Of a stretch of DNA of 64,000 bases, positions 7,093 through 51,660 are shown piece after piece. The stretch's first letter is position 1, and each line of letters begins with the position of its first letter. The stretch is from Acidobacteriaceae bacterium. Its GTDB lineage: Bacteria > Acidobacteriota > Terriglobia > Terriglobales > Acidobacteriaceae. The stretch lies in contig JAOAPC010000003.1 in assembly GCA_025462735.1 (NCBI GenBank), positions 62,001-126,000 on the forward strand, given 5' to 3'. Made by a program: the position numbers and the translations under genes. The notes under the pieces are model-generated. The model saw only the letters and a list, made by a program, of their open reading frames with translations, was not told the origin of the DNA and did not search any database.

Positions 7093-7511
7093 GCGATCGG
7101 TGCCGTCCCTTGCGGGACTCGGGCTTGTCGTGCTCTGCTTCCCGGCACTGCCGTGCCGGGCTTTCATATGTCGCCGCTCCGCGGCTGAAGCTTGCCTCAG
7201 GCATTCCTTATACCGCCGCGTTGTGGCTGAAACTTCTAGAAATGTTCTCGTGTGATCCGCGCGAGATCCCTCCCTCGGCGGAAGAACGCCGAGTTTTCGG
7301 GATGACCCATTTCCAAAGATGGAAGCGGCGGAACCCAATGCATCTCCCTTGACGGCGTCATCCCGAAGGCCCGCGTTTTCACCAGCGGGGCGAGGGATCT
7401 GGCGTACAGCGGCACCCAAGCCATCGGAATGTTCAGCCGTCACAGACAAGGGGAAACACTGAGTTCGAAAAATGTTGCCATTCGTAAGGGGAATTCCCCA
7501 GCGGTTTTGAG
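7093..7511. repeat. Intergenic region with a three-hairpin composite repeat
   Basis: No convincing gene in these 419 bases. It holds a composite repeat: GTCCCTTGCGGGAC (7105-7118), CCCGGCA..TGCCGGG (7141-7160) and GCCGCTCCGCGGC (7173-7185), with the same order at 51436-51514 and 51574-51653. Downstream, 7270-7400 contains inverted fragments (GGGATGACC and GGCGTCATCCCGAAG) of the common TCATCCCGA/TCATTCCGA repeat class. Confidence 0.75.
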
Positions 7512-42790: not shown

Positions 42791-43546
42791 AAAACTTTTC
42801 GGATGTCATGACTCTCACTATGCAAGGAGCCGTTGCGCAGCCGCAAGGTGCAAACAAACAATCGCATTGACAATGACAATCACGCCGGCTGGCCACCGCG
42901 AGAGATATCTAACGGTGAGTTTGGGTAGCACGCCTGCCCTGAGCGAAGCCGAAGGGGCTTCAGCCTCGCATATTCGCACCCTCCATCGATGTCATCCTGA
43001 GCGAAGCATTGTCATTCGTTGGCGAATGAAAATGCGGAGTCGAGGGACCTTGTGTTTCTACTCGTTGCGAACCGCAATCCCGGGATCTTATTTCTGCCGC
43101 TCAGGGTGCAGGGGGTGCCCCACTTCTCGCCGGTTTTGCGAGAAGTGGGAATCAACTGAACCCTGCGCCACCGCGGAAGAGCGGCGCTTCAGCGCCGCGT
43201 GACGCGCACCCAACTTGATGTCATTCCGAGCGAAGCATTTCGCGTCTGCGAAATGCGAAATCGAGGAATCTGCTGTTTTCGTGCGTGCCCAAAGCAGCGG
43301 GCGCTTCTTCCGTCGCGCTTGGTCAAGGTCTGTTCCCGGTAGCACGGCTGAAGCCGTGCCGCACAATCGGCTTAATAATTGTCATTCCGACGAAACAGGA
43401 TCATTCACTTCGCGAATGATCCTGCGAAGTGGAGGAATCTGCTGTTGAAGATTGTCGGCAATCCCACTCTTTGAAAACCGCAAAGGGTGGGGCAGCCTCA
43501 TTTTGGGTCGTGCAGATGGGTTACAACCCATTGATTAAGATAAGTT
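42791..43546. repeat. Repeat-rich intergenic region
   Basis: 756 bases without a gene, packed with dispersed repeats: CCCTGAGCGAAGCCGAAGGG near 42936; TGTCATCCTGAGCGAAGC near 42988; CCCACTTCTCGC palindrome at 43119-43149; GCGGCGCTTCAGCGCCGC near 43180; TGTCATTCCGAGCGAAGC at about 43219; GCACGGCTGAAGCCGTGC at 43342-43359; TGTCATTCCGACGAAACAGG at about 43380 with an inner TCATTC..GAATGA hairpin; and AAACCGCAAAGGGTGGGG at 43473-43490. Confidence 0.85.
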
Positions 43547-43897: not shown

Positions 43898-44085
43898 GCA
43901 GCGTTGTATCGGGGCACGGCTTTAGCCGTGCCACCTACAATTCCGTTTCAAATTTGTCATTCCGAGCTTCGCATTTCGCGTACGCGAAATGCGAAGTCGA
44001 GAGCCTGCCCGTTTTAGCCGAAGCCCCGAGCGAAGTCGAGGGGGACTGACCAGAGGAGGGAGTCGAACGGGAATCTGCTTTTCGG
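43898..44085. repeat. Repeat cluster downstream of the defence operon
   Basis: Holds GGCACGGCTTTAGCCGTGCC (43913-43932), a TGTCATTCCGAGCTTCGCA unit near 43957 with TTTCGCGTACGCGAAATGCG hairpin, and a CCCGAGCGAAGTCGAGGGG unit near 44026. No gene seen. Confidence 0.8.
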
Positions 44086-44317: not shown

Positions 44318-47002
44318 CTAGCCCAAAAGTCCGTAAATCTGTGCTCGCCGCTTAAACGCCTCCTCCGAACCCTCGAGTATTTGGCAGGCAATCTTCTTTG
44401 TAGCGCCATCATCGATGGATCCATTAGCAACAATGCGGCTCTTTTCGCTTGTGCTCTTAAGGGCGATAATTTGCTCGGCATCGCCCAAAATTGCGATGTT
44501 CGCGTTATGAGTTACGACAATGATCTGCCGCCGTTCCTTTGCGCGCCTCAAGACGGGGACTAACGATTGGAAGATGAATTCACCGTCCAAATTGTCCTCC
44601 GGCTGATCGATAATCAGAGGACACTTACTATCCGATGACAGCATCAGAGCCAATAGGATCGATTGCTGCTGCCCCATTGAAAGCTTGGAAAAATCTCTGG
44701 AAACGAATCGCTCCTTGCCCGCCTCACTAATTTTCTTTGTAACAGTTATTTTCGGCCGATCTTGCACCACGCATCGCTCGAGCTGAAACCTGTATGGCGT
44801 CTCGTTAAGTCTCCTGAGAATAGACAGTGCGTCATCCTTATTGAAGACCCTTATTCCCGAGGACTCCAACTCCGTTAACGACGTTGGATCATTCTTGTCG
44901 ATTGCATCAAGAAGGGCCGGGATAGTCACATTTTCTGCTATGAGCGTGGCCCTGGGCACTTGCGCGGTCCGCCAATCCATTGTGTTCTGGATGATCTCCG
45001 CGCCTTCGACCGATAATCCAGATTCCGCGAATTTGATACTCACCAGTAGGTCTCCCAACGCGCCTTCTAGCGCTTTGGTGCTCTTTGTCGCGTATGCGCC
45101 ACGAACCACCGAAATCTTGCTCAAGAGAACGCGTCGTTCCTTAATTATTTGGACACGCTCCTGCCGAAGGCTGTTAAGGCTCTTCTCCCACTCAGCCAGT
45201 GTGACGAGCGCCTTCGTGTAATTTGCTTCGTCTGTCGCAAGTTTTCTGATGTTCGCCAGATCGAGCCTCACGCCTTCAGCGGCGAGTTCCTTCCGCTTCT
45301 GTTCTATCGTGTCCACAATTGCCTGCTCTTTAGCTTTCCATGTATCGACGTGGCCCTTGATCGCGGACGACAATTTACCAATTTCGTCCGCACTCCACTG
45401 TTCTGCCTTCTGCATCTTCCCTTGGAAATCCGTAAGGAGAATGAGGATTTGAGCAAATTGTTCTTTGCCAACCTCAAGGTCCTCCACTCGACAGAGCCCC
45501 TTTACCTTGGCAACGTCCTCGGAGATGGCAGCGGATTTTGCAGAGCCGGAAATGTCTCTAAGGCGCTTGTCAATCTGCTCTCGGAGGCTCCGTTCCTCCG
45601 CTACTTTCCGCTCTAGTCCAACAACCTCCTTCGCCTTAGCTTTTTCTAAAGCAGCGAGCTGTCTCTTGGTCACGTCCAGAACCTGTCGGAAATATGCGGT
45701 TTTGTTCACCTCGAGTTGCGCCTTCTCAATGCTGGTTTGATTTTCGAGAAGTCGCTGTCTTAGTTGATCGTCCTCTTCAACTAGCTTTTTAATTGGGATG
45801 AACTTGTCTAGATACTCCAGCAAAGAAACGGAGTCGTATCGGGCTTTAGCGCTGGTTTCGGCCGTTTCACCTTGCCCATAACTCTCGATTGGGAATTGTG
45901 TCGGTCCCCAGTCGCGATCATCAACGTTCACGGACACGTCCTCAATTCTGCGCTCGATCAGATGCTGATGTCCTGCTTCGTCGACCCAGACCAAGCTTAG
46001 AACCTCCGGCCAAATTTCCGAGTCTATGAGCTTGCTATCACTTACGCCAGGAGCGATGGTTCGCACGCATTCAAACACGGTAGATTTTCCGGCACCCCTG
46101 CCACCGATGATGCAATTCAGGTTTCGACTGAAATGTATCACCTGATCATGGAGGAAGTTCCCGTCTATTTTGAGTCCCATAATGTACGGGACAGACATCG
46201 GAATGTCGTCTTCCAAGCGAATGCGAGCATCCGCGTCCTGCAGCGCCACGCGCATACCATTGAAGGATGGATTGTCCATCTTTACTCGCGTTAGTCGCTT
46301 CGCACCCTGCGCGTTCTTGCCCAAAGTCGTCAGCGCGTGCGAATCGGAAAACATGACGCGAGCTAAAAACTGCTTCTCGCCGAGCCCTAATGCCCGTTGT
46401 CGTAGCCTTCCGAAGTTCGCGCGTTGCGGATCTTCGTCATCGGGAGAGTAGAGCATTGGGGCCGCACACGATTTCACCTCAAAGCCCAGGAGAGCCTTCT
46501 GGCAGAATATGTCCCGCTTGTGGTTTCCGTCTCCTGGAAGCTTCTGCTCTATTCCGCCGTCACCATCGACGTGTGCAAGGATTGCGAAGCCGCGCATTGG
46601 ATCTATGCTTTTTAGGCAATCCAACATGGACGTCTGACACCGGGAATTCTGTGTTCCCCTCTCCTCTAGGTTAAGCTTCCCCCACAGGTTCTGCAGCGAT
46701 AGAAAGTCTTGGAAATATACCAAGAGATGTCCTTCTGGAGTGGAAAGCTCAACGCCCGGAATGAACAACAGCTGCTTGCCGTGTGCCTCCCGAAGCCCCT
46801 CTTCAATATTATTGATCTCGTTGTGATCCGTAATGGCTATTGCCGAAAGCCGTTCAGCAACCGCGGTGCTGACTATTGACGCAGGAGTCATCAGATTGTC
46901 CTTCACATCATGAGACCCGCCGTAGGAATGGATGTGGAGATCGGCGCGCCAGAAGCGAGCGCCCGCTGCCAACTTGGCAATCTCGTCCGAAACACTGCTC
47001 AT
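44318..47002 (-). CDS. PHP-domain SMC-like ATPase (TrlF type), defence-like
   Basis: An 894-residue fusion. The N-terminal PHP domain has metal ligands in DLHIHS (21-26), DHNE (59-62), GVEL (83-86) and AHVDGD (143-148), plus SDSH (219-222). The ATPase has Walker A GGRGAGKST (300-308), a long coiled-coil (about 400-680), signature LSMGQ (774-778), Walker B LIIDQPED with D799 and E802, and the H-loop VVTHNA. This is the layout of TrlF-family PHP-AAA proteins, found near defence genes. GGAGG is 5 bases before the ATG. It lies between an AbiEi-like gene and a 64-aa gene. Likely role: damage- or phage-triggered nuclease or phosphoesterase with an SMC-like sensor; this is inference. Confidence 0.85.
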   Translation of the reverse strand: MSSVSDEIAKLAAGARFWRADLHIHSYGGSHDVKDNLMTPASIVSTAVAERLSAIAITDHNEINNIEEGLREAHGKQLLFIPGVELSTPEGHLLVYFQDFLSLQNLWGKLNLEERGTQNSRCQTSMLDCLKSIDPMRGFAILAHVDGDGGIEQKLPGDGNHKRDIFCQKALLGFEVKSCAAPMLYSPDDEDPQRANFGRLRQRALGLGEKQFLARVMFSDSHALTTLGKNAQGAKRLTRVKMDNPSFNGMRVALQDADARIRLEDDIPMSVPYIMGLKIDGNFLHDQVIHFSRNLNCIIGGRGAGKSTVFECVRTIAPGVSDSKLIDSEIWPEVLSLVWVDEAGHQHLIERRIEDVSVNVDDRDWGPTQFPIESYGQGETAETSAKARYDSVSLLEYLDKFIPIKKLVEEDDQLRQRLLENQTSIEKAQLEVNKTAYFRQVLDVTKRQLAALEKAKAKEVVGLERKVAEERSLREQIDKRLRDISGSAKSAAISEDVAKVKGLCRVEDLEVGKEQFAQILILLTDFQGKMQKAEQWSADEIGKLSSAIKGHVDTWKAKEQAIVDTIEQKRKELAAEGVRLDLANIRKLATDEANYTKALVTLAEWEKSLNSLRQERVQIIKERRVLLSKISVVRGAYATKSTKALEGALGDLLVSIKFAESGLSVEGAEIIQNTMDWRTAQVPRATLIAENVTIPALLDAIDKNDPTSLTELESSGIRVFNKDDALSILRRLNETPYRFQLERCVVQDRPKITVTKKISEAGKERFVSRDFSKLSMGQQQSILLALMLSSDSKCPLIIDQPEDNLDGEFIFQSLVPVLRRAKERRQIIVVTHNANIAILGDAEQIIALKSTSEKSRIVANGSIDDGATKKIACQILEGSEEAFKRRAQIYGLLG

Positions 47003-47092: not shown

Positions 47093-47998
47093 TTACCGCT
47101 CGGCTGCGCGAGAACCGCTGCGCTCGCGTAAGTCTGACGGATAGTAAACGCGCCATTCTGGATCGAGGAGTGGCTTAGACATTCCGTAACACAGGTAAAA
47201 GTCAAAGTGAGTACTAATACGCGAAAACAATCGCTGGTCCTTTGCGCTATATCCAGCACATTTTAGGTAAAAACCTATTGCCTGATGGTATGGATAGGTA
47301 TAATCCAGTGCTTCAAGATCGCGCGCGAGGCGCGGCACAGAAATTCGGTCGCGGGTGGCGATGAAGGCATCTAGAACTCGACAGACTCCGCCAGCATACT
47401 GTGGCCGTACGGCCACGTCGATTAGCGTCCGTTCCAGCGATGTTACATCGAGTGCGCCGGTGCCGGGAGCATTTATTCTTTTAACTCCACGACGATTAGT
47501 GTTCTTGCCGTTGAGGATCGTGATCGCACATTCGCCAAGTTTATAGATCGACTTCGTGTGACGAGGCTGATTCTGAAAAGCACGGTCAATAGCCTCCTGC
47601 GTGAGGTTGCTATCGTTGGGCGGCTTCTCCCGTTGTTCGTGGTTTACGTAGATTTGCTGCTCGCTTCCACCCAAGCCATGTGCCCATAGTGCGGATCCAT
47701 GCGACAGATAACAACCACGTTTTGTGGACAGCGCGATCGTCTCAGCGGCAACATCCTTCCCCCAAACATATCTCTTAATCGAGTCATAATGCGGACTCTT
47801 GAGCTCAACGAGCTGCATCGAACTGTTCTTCAATATCCACTCGGCGAACTCGTCTATTCCTACGCGCCGCGGTACATTCCAGGCACTCTTATATCGTCGT
47901 AGTATGCCGATGAAGTCAGAAGGCCAAAAAACGCGTTGGTGGGACGCTTCGAAAAAAAGTTGAATCTTATCCGCTTCAATTTTGTCTGAGAGTGACAC
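47093..47998 (-). CDS. AbiEi-like antitoxin/autoregulator
   Basis: A 301-residue protein with an AbiEi-like layout: an N-terminal helical DNA-binding part (HQRVFWPSDFIGILRRYKSAW, then VPRRVGIDEFAEWIL), followed by GCYLSHGSALWAHGL, a typical AbiEi block, and LDVTSLERTLIDVAVRPQYAGG in the C-terminal part. In type IV abiE systems this protein represses its own operon by binding two inverted repeats. Start GTG 47998 has no Shine-Dalgarno; the palindrome at 48003 abuts it, so the leader must be short. The expected AbiEii nucleotidyltransferase toxin is missing and a PHP-ATPase follows instead. Confidence 0.82.
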   Translation of the reverse strand: MSLSDKIEADKIQLFFEASHQRVFWPSDFIGILRRYKSAWNVPRRVGIDEFAEWILKNSSMQLVELKSPHYDSIKRYVWGKDVAAETIALSTKRGCYLSHGSALWAHGLGGSEQQIYVNHEQREKPPNDSNLTQEAIDRAFQNQPRHTKSIYKLGECAITILNGKNTNRRGVKRINAPGTGALDVTSLERTLIDVAVRPQYAGGVCRVLDAFIATRDRISVPRLARDLEALDYTYPYHQAIGFYLKCAGYSAKDQRLFSRISTHFDFYLCYGMSKPLLDPEWRVYYPSDLRERSGSRAAER

Positions 47999-48002
47999 AG
48001 AT

Positions 48003-48042
48003 TGGTAATGTGAGCCGGTATATATACCTGCTCACATTACCA
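48003..48042 (-). promoter_or_regulatory. Long palindromic operator 1, upstream of the AbiEi-like gene
   Basis: A 40-base palindrome, 19 of 20 pairs matched, arms TGGTAATGTGAGCC and TGCTCACATTACCA around the core GGTATATATACC, 4 bases from the GTG start. The TATATA core could be the -10 box. It is a very probable binding site of the AbiEi-like repressor; direct observation is the palindrome, the role is inferred. Confidence 0.82.
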
Positions 48043-48089
48043 GCTCAGCCTTAATGGCGTGCAATCAATTTTTTCAGTAGTTCTCAAGA

Positions 48090-48125
48090 AACGGGTATGA
48101 AGGTATATATACCTTCATACCCGTT
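48090..48125 (-). promoter_or_regulatory. Long palindromic operator 2, perfect
   Basis: A 36-base perfect palindrome, 18 of 18 pairs, arms AACGGGTATGAA and TTCATACCCGTT around the same core GGTATATATACC. Its centre is 85 bases from that of operator 1, close to eight helical turns, so both sites would face the same side, allowing cooperative binding or looping. No T-tract follows on either strand, so it is not a nrdJ terminator. Confidence 0.82.
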
Positions 48126-48135
48126 GGTTCAAATC

Positions 48136-48244
48136 CTAGCTGCACCCACTCGTGCTGCCGCAGCTCATGCACTTGTAGCAACTTCCGTTTCTCACCATGA
48201 TTGAGCCGCAGACGTGGCAACTGGGCGCGTCTCCCAGGTCAACC
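48136..48244 (-). pseudogene. Duplicated 3' end of nrdJ (zinc-ribbon tail)
   Basis: About 109 bases nearly identical to 48333-48441, the end of nrdJ, in tandem on the same strand. It encodes the same tail VDLGDAPSCHVCGSIMVRNG then SCYKCMSCGSTSGCS and its own stop. No start codon or ribosome-binding site is suitable, so it is probably an untranslated relic, separated from nrdJ by an 88-base stretch of palindromic repeats. Confidence 0.8.
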
Positions 48245-48332
48245 ACTGTCCGTGTGGCGCGGGCACTCCTGCCCGCGAATCCCTTCACACATAACCCTGG
48301 CGGACAAGAGTGTCCGCCCCACACGGCCGCTG

Positions 48333-51300
48333 CTAGCTACACCCTGATGTCGATCCGCAGCTCATGCATTTGTAGCAACTGCCGTTTCTCACCATGATTG
48401 AGCCGCAGACGTGGCAACTGGGCGCATCTCCGAGGTCAACCAATTCGGCGAGAGCGTCGGCGGCGTGGACCTTGCCAGTGGTCAGTGGTCGGTGATTAGT
48501 GGTCAGCGAGCCCGCACCCGACTCGCCGGGCGAGGACGCCCGCCCTCCATCACCCAAATCACCCGCTTCTGGCAACTGACCACTAGTCACTGACAGCTTG
48601 GGCCGCAGGTTCTCGAACAGCAACTGCTGCTGGCCGGTGAGGAAGCGCAACTGCAGCCAGCGGAAGATGTAGTCCATGATCGACTTGGCAAAGCCGATGT
48701 CGGCATTGTTGGTCCAGCCGCTGGGCTCGAAGCGGGTGTGCGCGAACTTCTCGCACAACAGCTTCAACGGCACGCCGTGTTGCAACGACAGCGAGACGGC
48801 GCAGGCAAAGCTGTCCATCAGGCCGGAGACGGTGGAGCCTTCCTTCGCCATAGTGATGAAAAGTTCGCCAGGGCTGCCGTCGCGGTAGAGGCCGACGGTG
48901 ATGTAGCCTTCGTGTCCCCCCACGTTGAACTTGTGAGTGATGGACATGCGCTCATCTTCAAGACGATGGCGCACGGCCTTCGGCGGGGCAAGCATGTCCT
49001 GCTCTTCAATGACTGCGTGTGTGGCGCGGGCGCCACTGCCCGCGGCTTCCGCAGTTTTTGTTCCGGCGGCCGAGAGCGGCTGCGACTTCTTGCATCCATC
49101 GCGATAGACTGCGACCGCCTTCAGTCCCAGCTTCCACGCCTGAAGGTAGGCTTCCATGATGTCTTCAACGCTCGCCAGCTCAGGAAGATTGACAGTCTTC
49201 GAGATCGCTCCGGAGATGAATGGCTGCGCCGCCGCCATCATCTTCAAATGGCCCATATAAGCGATAGAGCGCGTGCCCTTCGCCGGCTTGAACGAGCAAT
49301 CGAATACCGGCAGATGATCGTCTTTCACCAGCGGCGCGCCTTCGATGGTGCCGGTTGCGTCGATGTAGCTGACGATCGCGTCCGCCTGATCGTGCGTGTA
49401 GCCCAGCTTGAACAACGCCGTGGGCACGGTGTTGTTCACAATTTTGATCATGCCGCCGCCAACCAGCTTCTTGTACTTCACCAGCGCCAAGTCGGGCTCG
49501 ATGCCGGTGGTATCGCAATCCATAAAAAATCCGATCGTTCCCGTGGGGGCGAGGACGGTGACTTGGGAGTTGCGGTAGCCGTGCTTTTCGCCGTGGGCAA
49601 GAGCTTCGTCCCAGCAAGCTTTCGAGCCTTCGAAGAGCGCGGAGGGCACATTGGTTTTGTTGATGTTGTTGACGGAAGCGCGGTGCATGCGGATCACGTC
49701 GAGAAATGGCTCGCGGTTGATGTAGAAGCCGGGGCAGGCGCCTCCGGGCATCGTGGCGGGAGCCGAGCTTTCATTGGGGCGGGCCTGGAGGGCCGCCCCT
49801 ACACGGTCTGAGGTAAATCCGAGATTCGTATCGCCTAAACCTTTCTTGGTTGGTTCGGTTGCCGGAACCAGCGGCGGGCAGAGCTCGGCGATTCGCGAAG
49901 ATTGCAGATATGCTTCGCCGCACATGATTGCGGTGACGCAGGCAGCGTAGTCGCGTCCGCCGTCGGAGTCATAGGGCAAGCCGCAGGCCATAAGCAACGC
50001 TCCGAGGTTCGCATAACCCAGTCCGAGCGGACGGTAATCATGCGAATTCTTCATGATCATTTCTGTCGGATAGCCAGCGTTGTCCACCAGAATTTCCTGC
50101 GCGGTGATCAGGATGTCCACGGCGTGGCGATAGGCCTCGACGTCGAAGGTGCCATTGGGCGCGAACTTCAGCAGATTGAGACTAGCAAGGTTGCAGGCGG
50201 AGTCGTCGAGGAACATGTACTCGCTGCAAGGATTCGACGCGTTGATGCGAGCCGTGTTCTTCGACGTATGCCAACGGTTGACGGTGCTGTCGTATTGCAT
50301 GCCGGGATCGCCGCAGCGCCAGGTAGCTTCGGAAATTTTGTAGAGCAGGTCTTTAGCTTTGAAGGTGTGCATGGGGCGGCCATCTTTGACCGCGCGCGTG
50401 GAGAAGTCAGTGTCGCGCAGGACGGCATACATGAAGTCGTCGGTCACGCGCACGGAGTTGTTGGCGTTCTGGAAGAAGATGGACGAATACGCTTCGGAGT
50501 CGGGAGACGATCCGTCGTATCCAGCTTCGACCAGCGCGTGGGCCTTGGCTTCTTCTTTGGACTTGCACTCGATGAAGTCAACGATGTCCGGATGATCAAC
50601 ATTGAGGATGACCATCTTGGCGGCGCGGCGTGTCTTGCCACCTGACTTGATGACTCCGGCGAAAGCGTCAAAACCCTTCATGAAGCTGAGCGGACCGCTG
50701 GCGGTGCCGCCACCGCTGAGAGTTTCAGTGGCAGAGCGCAGAGGAGAAAGATTCGTGCCGGTACCTGATCCCCACTTGAAGAGCATGCCTTCGGTCTTGG
50801 CCAGTGTGAGAATCGAGTCGAGCGAATCGTGTACCGAATTGATGAAGCAAGCGGAGCACTGCGGCTTCTTGTATCCGGTGACGCCGAATTCAACACGGCC
50901 GAGGGCGGCGTTCCAGTGCCAGTTTTGGCCGTCAGAGTTGGGCTCAATACGGTCGCAGCCAACATTGAACCAGACCGGCGAATTGAACGCTGCGTACTGG
51001 CGGATGAGCAAGTGCACGAGTTCATCGTGGAATGTAGCGCCGTCTTCGGGAGTGCGGAAATAGCCTTGAGCCAATCCCCAGTCGCGAATAGTTTCGGCGA
51101 CGCGGCCGACGAGTTGGCGCACTCCGGTTTCGCGCTGTGAGGTGCCGACCTCGCCGTGCAGATATTTCGAGGCGACGATGTTGGTCGCAGTCATCGACCA
51201 GTCCTTGGGGACCTCGACGTCTTTTTGCTCGAAGATGATTCCGCCCTTCGAGTCGGTGATCTGCGCCAAGCGCTTTTCCCATTCGACTTCGTCGTAGGGA

Positions 51301-51435: not shown

Positions 51436-51514
51436 GTCCCTACGGGACTCGTTCTTCTTCGTGTACTCACCCGGCGCTGAAGCGCCGGGCTATTTTCGTT
51501 CGCCCCTCCGGGGC
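51436..51514. repeat. Three-hairpin composite repeat, copy 2
   Basis: GTCCCTACGGGAC (51436-51448), CCCGGCGCTGAAGCGCCGGG (51470-51489) and GCCCCTCCGGGGC (51502-51514), same order as at 7105-7185. It lies directly upstream of nrdJ. Confidence 0.85.
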
Positions 51515-51573
51515 TTGGTCAATTGCTCACCTGTGGCACGTCTAAAGACGCGCCCTGATAAAAAACTCGTGCC

Positions 51574-51653
51574 GTCCCTTGCGGGACTCGTCTTCTATTC
51601 TTTGCTTCCCCGGCATTTCCATGCCGGGCTTTCCTATGCCGCCGCTTCGCGGC
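51574..51653. repeat. Three-hairpin composite repeat, copy 3
   Basis: GTCCCTTGCGGGAC (51574-51587), CCCGGCATTTCCATGCCGGG (51609-51628), GCCGCTTCGCGGC (51641-51653), nearly the same text as 7105-7185. Copies 2 and 3 lie 59 bases apart in the space between nrdJ and the next gene. Confidence 0.85.
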
Positions 51654-51660
51654 TGTGTAC

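Follow-up and report, generated by a model that had tools for sequence, protein, structure and literature searches.

Why should one promoter carry two long palindromes that share a core but differ in their arms? The question is raised by a locus in the window, the 64-kb stretch of Acidobacteriaceae DNA analysed here, where two such sites lie immediately before a gene for an AbiEi-like regulator. Whether cruciforms regulate anything in living bacteria is a long-standing question. The sites described below are short and natural, have a defined gene partner and covary strongly, and their complementarity could be broken and then restored by compensatory swaps. If the arms act through DNA shape, the loci would amount to a conserved type of promoter that senses DNA structure and governs toxin-antitoxin and defence genes. 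Otherwise, they would be clear natural cases of homogenisation by template switching. Either outcome on the arms would be informative.

Two long palindromes before an AbiEi-like gene

The proximal palindrome (palindrome 1, positions 48003-48042) is 40 bp long and has 19 of 20 pairs matched, the sole mismatch lying beside the core. The distal one (palindrome 2, 48090-48125) spans 36 bp and is matched at all 18 pairs. Both are centred on the same 12-bp core, GGTATATATACC, at 48017-48028 and 48102-48113, respectively. The arms differ, the dyads are 85 bp apart, and palindrome 1 ends 4 bases from a GTG start codon at 47998 on the minus strand. All of this agrees with the initial annotation, which also called the sites unusually long and perfect; they are indeed the top-ranked palindromes of the window. 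In addition, they have the sequence properties of a cruciform-forming element as given in the accessible text of PMC3834812, namely a perfect inverted repeat with copies of at least 10 bp and a small loop. A third perfect palindrome, of 30 bp, occurs elsewhere in the window at 43967-43996, within a 47-nt stretch that recurs at 43219-43265 with 87 % identity.

Could the twin sites be members of a generic repeat, a possibility that the annotation had raised against itself? In the 4,360,480 bases (4.36 Mb) of the genome that were searched, the core occurs at the two window sites only. A dispersed, REP-like palindromic repeat is therefore rejected.

The GTG codon opens the AbiEi-like gene (47093-47998, minus strand), which encodes 301 aa with a predicted winged-helix-like N-terminal part and a predicted nucleotidyltransferase-like C-terminal part. 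The profile evidence is weak, with PF09407 at 20.1 bits (cut-off 22.2) and the PADLOC AbiEi profile at an E value of 4.1e-11. An NCBIfam profile search of the protein gave no match, and a sequence search of solved structures gave one insignificant match. The AlphaFold model (mean pLDDT 94.0) aligns with Mycobacterium tuberculosis Rv2827c (1zel_B; Z 14.3, 252 aligned, rmsd 4.7) and with Streptococcus agalactiae AbiEi (6y8q_A; Z 11.6, 189 aligned, rmsd 4.4), and the next structural match below the AbiEi entries is a nucleotidyltransferase toxin at Z 8.4. These comparisons of the model support an AbiEi fold for the window protein, in line with the name that the annotation gave to the gene.

Behind this gene, on the same strand and after a gap of 90 bp, lies a gene for a TrlF-family PHP-ATPase (44318-47002, minus strand; 894 aa; 486.8 bits against NF045780, cut-off 350). 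No AbiEii was found in the window; TrlF stands as the neighbour instead, and is presumed to be the co-regulated effector. Are the palindromes then tied to TrlF? A survey of 150 related genomes yielded 17 TrlF loci from 16 genomes, some truncated upstream by contig ends, and only one of the 17, that of the window, has palindromes or an AbiEi-like gene. A tie to TrlF is thus rejected, and the palindromes go with the AbiEi-like gene.

The annotation had further proposed that the core of palindrome 1 overlaps a -10 box. This is not borne out. No sigma-70-like promoter was found at 47900-48350. In the homologs described below, where a -10 element is recognisable by eye, or in Bacteroidota a -7 element, it falls at the left arm or immediately outside it, which places the dyad near the transcription start.

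Some further observations concern the surroundings of palindrome 2. A stretch that we take to resemble a tRNA T-arm (48126-48140) directly adjoins it and has one other match in the genome within one mismatch. The window holds no tRNA gene, and the idea of a tRNA attachment site was rejected in favour of coincidence. The final 110 nt of nrdJ occur twice (48136-48245 and 48333-48442; 97/110 identical, same peptide), with the extra copy stopping 10 nt from palindrome 2. In locus L004 the palindromes likewise lie within ~25 nt after the nrdJ stop, and recombination may thus have brought in the cassette and a donor nrdJ end together. The window also has three matches to the Acido-Lenti-1 RNA (RF01687) above the gathering score (7141-7186, 51470-51515 and 51609-51654), two of them at the nrdJ start and a short way before it.

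Linkage of the palindromes to AbiEi-like genes

Do the palindromes accompany the gene in other bacteria? The promoter regions compared number 63, of which 23 were reached through the core, 39 through the gene (three of these by a DNA query covering a promoter as well) and one is that of the window. Gene starts were estimated from the profile match, both for these counts and for the positions of palindromes relative to the start. Comparison of these regions upholds the placement of the palindromes at the promoter and start of the AbiEi-like gene and their conservation with it: they are present in 61 of the 63 (39/39 gene-found, 21/23 core-found and the window), and 56 of the 63 have a perfect palindrome with a half-length of at least 12. 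The two exceptions, L015 and L024, have cores but little symmetry. Five homologs among 150 relatives (39-43 % identity) each have two or three long palindromes before the gene.

The linkage is also seen when the search starts from the core. Two exact cores 70-100 nt apart were found at 29 loci in a collection of 84,980 species, three of these loci being records already in the set (L019, L025 and L032), and an AbiEi-like gene adjoins in 26 of the 29 loci found by the double core alone. Across the 26 genomes behind the remaining double-core loci, 59 of 60 core copies stand at the queried locus, and a generic repeat is rejected there too. Among classical AbiEi_4 (PF13338) loci such a palindrome is present in 1 of 29; these came from 120 relatives, with 30 loci fetched and L106 left out as the same locus as L006.

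Gene searches in plasmids (27 of the 34 matching records and two further records) and in families added loci from Bacillota, Bacteroidota, Burkholderia-type bacteria and Campylobacterota. The core varies from clade to clade, as in GGTACGCGTACC, AGTATGCATACT or GCAGC-N6-GCTGC, and the palindromes persist. By record title, with the titles of metagenome bins taken as given, they occur in eight phyla: Acidobacteriota, Pseudomonadota, Planctomycetota, Eisenbacteria, Bacteroidota, Spirochaetota, Bacillota and Campylobacterota.

Comparable palindromes outside the promoter regions number 2 in 248 kb, against 93 in 28 kb within them, and one of the two (L048) lies further upstream of the same AbiEi-like gene. 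Loci L071-L074 and L076, which are near-duplicates or broken, were left out of these background counts, as well as of the arm, mismatch, spacing and half-length counts. In L071, where both AbiEi and AbiEii are apparently broken, no long palindrome is left, and this one case favours function. As regards carriage by phages, a search of viral contigs did not turn up the double core, and a tblastn search of phages with a single protein, the AbiEi-like protein of L048, found nothing.

Two perfect pairs, at 2706-2848 in L063 and 4900-5038 in L064, have the core and the usual spacing but no AbiEi-like gene nearby. No such gene was detected in the genomes of either locus, an empty answer that is weak evidence by itself. 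Genes near gene-less pairs include a Y1 transposase (L012) or a phage-type integrase and an AAA ATPase (L064). The record that contains L052 (NZ_CP106866.1, 81 kb) repeats the AbiEi region six times in near-identical form, at regular intervals of ~13.5 kb, and looks like a multimeric assembly; five of the six copies are split into two frames.

How are the neighbouring genes arranged? Relative to the AbiEi-like gene, in 61 oriented loci, AbiEii is convergent in 37 (L004, L005, L007, L008, L015, L020, L022, L033, L036, L046-L050 and others), divergent in 8 and not found in 16, partly because the locus sequence ends there; in none of the 61 is it on the same strand. The 3' ends overlap in 31 of the 37 convergent loci, and mutual antisense transcription of the two genes is possible. 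A palindrome before the convergent AbiEii gene is absent from 28 of 29 loci examined and the sole case (L082) is unrelated in sequence, so a palindrome at the AbiEii promoter is rejected as a rule. HipA-type genes occur near AbiEi-like genes with no AbiEii in the fetched stretch (L066, 3432-4355; L149, 2-1150), and the AbiEi-like regulator may be combined with different effectors.

A fixed core between free but complementary arms

The half-lengths of the palindromes are bimodal. The range of 8-10 is almost empty (3 palindromes), that of 11-27 is populated (95), and the mode is 14. The 95 perfect palindromes with a half-length of at least 11 compare with ~0.05 expected from Markov resampling of the 63 promoter regions.

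The statistics on arm symmetry and covariation draw mainly on loci retrieved through two exact cores separated by 70-100 nt. This makes the core invariant there by construction, which is not so for the symmetry of the arms. A core counted as palindromic if it paired at five or more of the six offsets 3-8; 66 of 74 pass, and the other 8 of the 74 are exact cores that are non-palindromic by this filter. The offset-mismatch, self/cross-match, spacing and G+C analyses use palindromic cores only, the last two being based on the 60 that are left after omitting three Bacillota loci. Arm length shows no significant dependence on G+C (rho -0.15, p 0.24, n = 60). The distance of about eight helical turns to which the annotation had drawn attention is not a conserved feature either. 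The spacings, restricted to those under 140, number 59 and range from 51 to 137, and helical phasing is rejected (Rayleigh p ~0.87 at 10.5 bp).

Within a clade the core is fixed, and, except in Bacillota, there is hardly any constraint on the sequence of the arms. With all 74 cores aligned and no filter applied, the arms are complementary at offsets 3-7 in 91-96 % of cases, whereas the arm match is 28-42 % between different palindromes of the same locus (Bacillota included in these unfiltered percentages) and 24-27 % between different loci. In the 66 palindromic cores the per-base count is 8 to 25 at offsets 3-7 and 8 to 26 at offsets 3-8. The comparison within loci was made in 23 non-Bacillota loci with two or more palindromic cores. 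The self match within one palindrome is 299/306, and the cross match between palindromes of one locus is 121/396.

What if the arms simply belong to an ordinary extended operator? AbiEi dimers would contact ~28 bp and the symmetric flanks would be two identical half-sites. S. agalactiae AbiEi binds two 23-bp inverted repeats, according to the accessible text of PMC7319586, and the commonest half-length over all clades is 14. Moreover, the arm sequence is conserved across genera in the Bacillota group, which resembles an ordinary long operator. However, the same protein would have to recognise unrelated arms in the same locus, as the self and cross matches make plain, so an operator read base by base along the arms fails. 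The broad base composition at offsets 3-8 also argues against it, and we consider this explanation improbable. The operator reading in the initial annotation thus accounts for the core, but not for the self-complementarity of arms that differ within a locus.

Covariation was scored on 67 unfiltered core sequences in locus rather than gene orientation, a set that includes L012 and L016, where no AbiEi-like gene was found, and omits L027, whose two cores have neither long arms nor the gene, and the cores of loci fetched after the double-core scan. Paired cells make up 87.3 % against 39.4 % in shuffles, double-changed cells number 363 against 125, and the covariation score is 1.11 against 0.21 when shuffled and 0.13-0.20 when slid. 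Two cruder measures of the five used (both-side-changed pairs and further pair types) do not exceed shuffles, because sequences this varied saturate them. No close relatives whose arms differ at only a few positions were found for the arm-variable clade. Loci L047 and L048 are 85 % identical over both genes, with upstream regions that BLAST left unaligned.

Pairing of this kind might also serve in RNA, with a hairpin in the leader of the AbiEi mRNA controlling translation or stability. The proximal palindrome adjoins the start codon, the right arm of L005 and of L031 contains a Shine-Dalgarno-like stretch, and the fold of the window strand as RNA is very stable (z -8.2). However, an RNA hairpin predicts G·U pairs, and the 396 cells at offsets 3-8 contain 1 G·T, along with 4 A·C and 6 other mismatches. 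Because G·T is this rare, the arm symmetry is a property of the DNA, which takes its place beside the gene linkage, the fixed core, the free covarying arms and the length threshold as a direct observation. Two other points go against an RNA hairpin. Distal palindromes, ~100 nt upstream, are equally perfect, and a -10-like box lies by eye at or inside the left arm in L045, L046, L049, L080 and L081, so that the transcript would miss part of that arm. With the near absence of G·T as the main objection, this explanation is very improbable.

Once a sequence-read operator and an RNA hairpin are disfavoured, what is left is selection for intrastrand DNA pairing, or copying. Copying is the main rival. 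The core, perhaps with the regulator bound, would stall replication, and fold-back template switching would copy one arm over the other; the arms would be a mutational by-product devoid of function. Template switching can create and repair perfect stems, as set out in the accessible text of PMC8794818. Arm tails extend up to 24 nt past the core, far above chance, and pairing in the six positions past the first outer mismatch is slightly raised (130/396 against ~26 %, p 0.0015), as if longer palindromes had decayed. Both features fit the birth of long palindromes followed by decay. The two perfect pairs in genomes with no detected AbiEi-like gene count for copying as well.

The trouble lies in where the mismatches fall. 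Copying outward from the core predicts that the core-adjacent pair is the most symmetric, whereas it is the least symmetric of offsets 1-8, mismatched in 13 of 66 palindromic cores (mismatches at offsets 1-11 are 13, 5, 0, 1, 0, 2, 1, 7, 16, 24 and 31). Ten palindromes, including palindrome 1 of the window, have their sole mismatch at offsets 1-7 beside the core. Also at odds with copying are the perfect arms of 10-19 nt around asymmetric centres of 9-14 nt in L004, L031, L042, L043 and L051, the rarity of comparable palindromes elsewhere in the loci and the broken L071. Functionless arms made by copying are therefore unlikely. Template switching may well supply new arms, but since the core-adjacent pair is not the most symmetric, a regulator-read core with cruciform-competent arms is favoured over copying alone.

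A proposed mechanism and its relation to known systems

The reading that we prefer has two layers, a core read by the regulator and arms selected for self-complementarity, most simply for cruciform extrusion. We give it a probability of about 45 %, a little short of even odds. The twin palindromes would control the AbiEi-like gene and probably also the TrlF-type gene behind it. In the first layer, the 12-bp core plus an A/T-rich base on each side would form the base-specific site of the AbiEi-like regulator, which, judging from the AbiEi fold and published AbiEi autoregulation, would repress its own promoter. In the second layer, arms of ~8 bp or more per side would be nearly sequence-free and mutually complementary at the DNA level. 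The simplest reason for such arms would be that the site leaves B-form and extrudes as a cruciform with a 4-nt A/T tip (TATA) and a half-length at or above ~11-14 bp. We infer regulator binding, cruciform formation and the use of both in a two-state switch, in which the regulator would occupy the site in its linear state and extrusion would take the core away into the hairpins. Negative supercoiling or DNA stress, for example phage takeover, could favour the extruded state.

Several points are compatible with a cruciform, namely the A/T tip, the length threshold just above 10 and the greater tolerance of mismatches nearest the core. Nevertheless, the accessible text of a cruciform paper cited here states that a stem with several imperfections close to its loop may fail to extrude. 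Other points go against the two-layer reading. The A/T tip occurs in the clade of the window and many others but not in all, Hymenobacter having CGCG and Burkholderia-type loci, for example, TGCA. The Bacillota arms are conserved, the pairs in L063 and L064 have no detected gene, L015 and L024 show little symmetry, 8 of the 74 exact cores are non-palindromic, and the G+C test is null. Even so, the pattern as a whole suggests that DNA shape, besides sequence, is under selection at these switches. Perhaps the loci make up a widespread class of elements that accompanies AbiEi-like regulators in eight or more phyla (by record title), controls toxins and defence effectors, and senses supercoiling or DNA stress by moving between linear and cruciform forms. 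This broader proposal is tentative, and on balance we lean against it.

Conserved pairing with free sequence has a precedent in integron attC sites, which are structure-recognised hairpins of single-strand DNA. They are, however, recombination sites, and their conserved boxes lie toward the stem base rather than at the centre.

The closest relatives are the AbiEi systems themselves, in which binding of AbiEi to promoter inverted repeats is already known (PMC3985639, PMC7319586, PMC11062541). The autoregulation described for S. agalactiae AbiEi and Rv2827c in the accessible text of PMC3985639 and PMC7319586 shares with the present loci the AbiEi fold and more than one inverted repeat in the promoter. 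The cooperative binding of two inverted repeats that the annotation ascribed to AbiEi proteins holds for S. agalactiae AbiEi but not for Rv2827c, for which PMC7319586 gives negative cooperativity. The published systems, as far as the accessible text goes, have 23-bp repeats of similar sequence that are bound by the protein, and a bicistronic toxin/antitoxin operon. In the present loci, by contrast, the arms are nearly free but self-complementary (outside Bacillota), the palindromes mostly have no interruption, and either AbiEii has a convergent or divergent orientation or the neighbour is another gene, which in the window is TrlF. The AbiE system of a Streptococcus suis ICE (PMC11062541) likewise has two palindromic sequences in its promoter, there bound by AbiEi, whereas arm variation and self-complementarity are not addressed in its accessible text.

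A second group of relatives is formed by the inverted repeats of PMC6060812, where a cruciform that represses transcription in E. coli is cited. They resemble the present palindromes in their small loops, their location in promoter regions and an action thought to take place at the DNA level, but the accessible text does not present them as fixed-core elements conserved alongside a single regulator family. Among the open-access papers searched, neither sequence-free self-complementary arms nor a convergent AbiEi/AbiEii pair was found described. The palindromes are filed as promoter control of the AbiEi type with new features and a proposed structural role for the arms.
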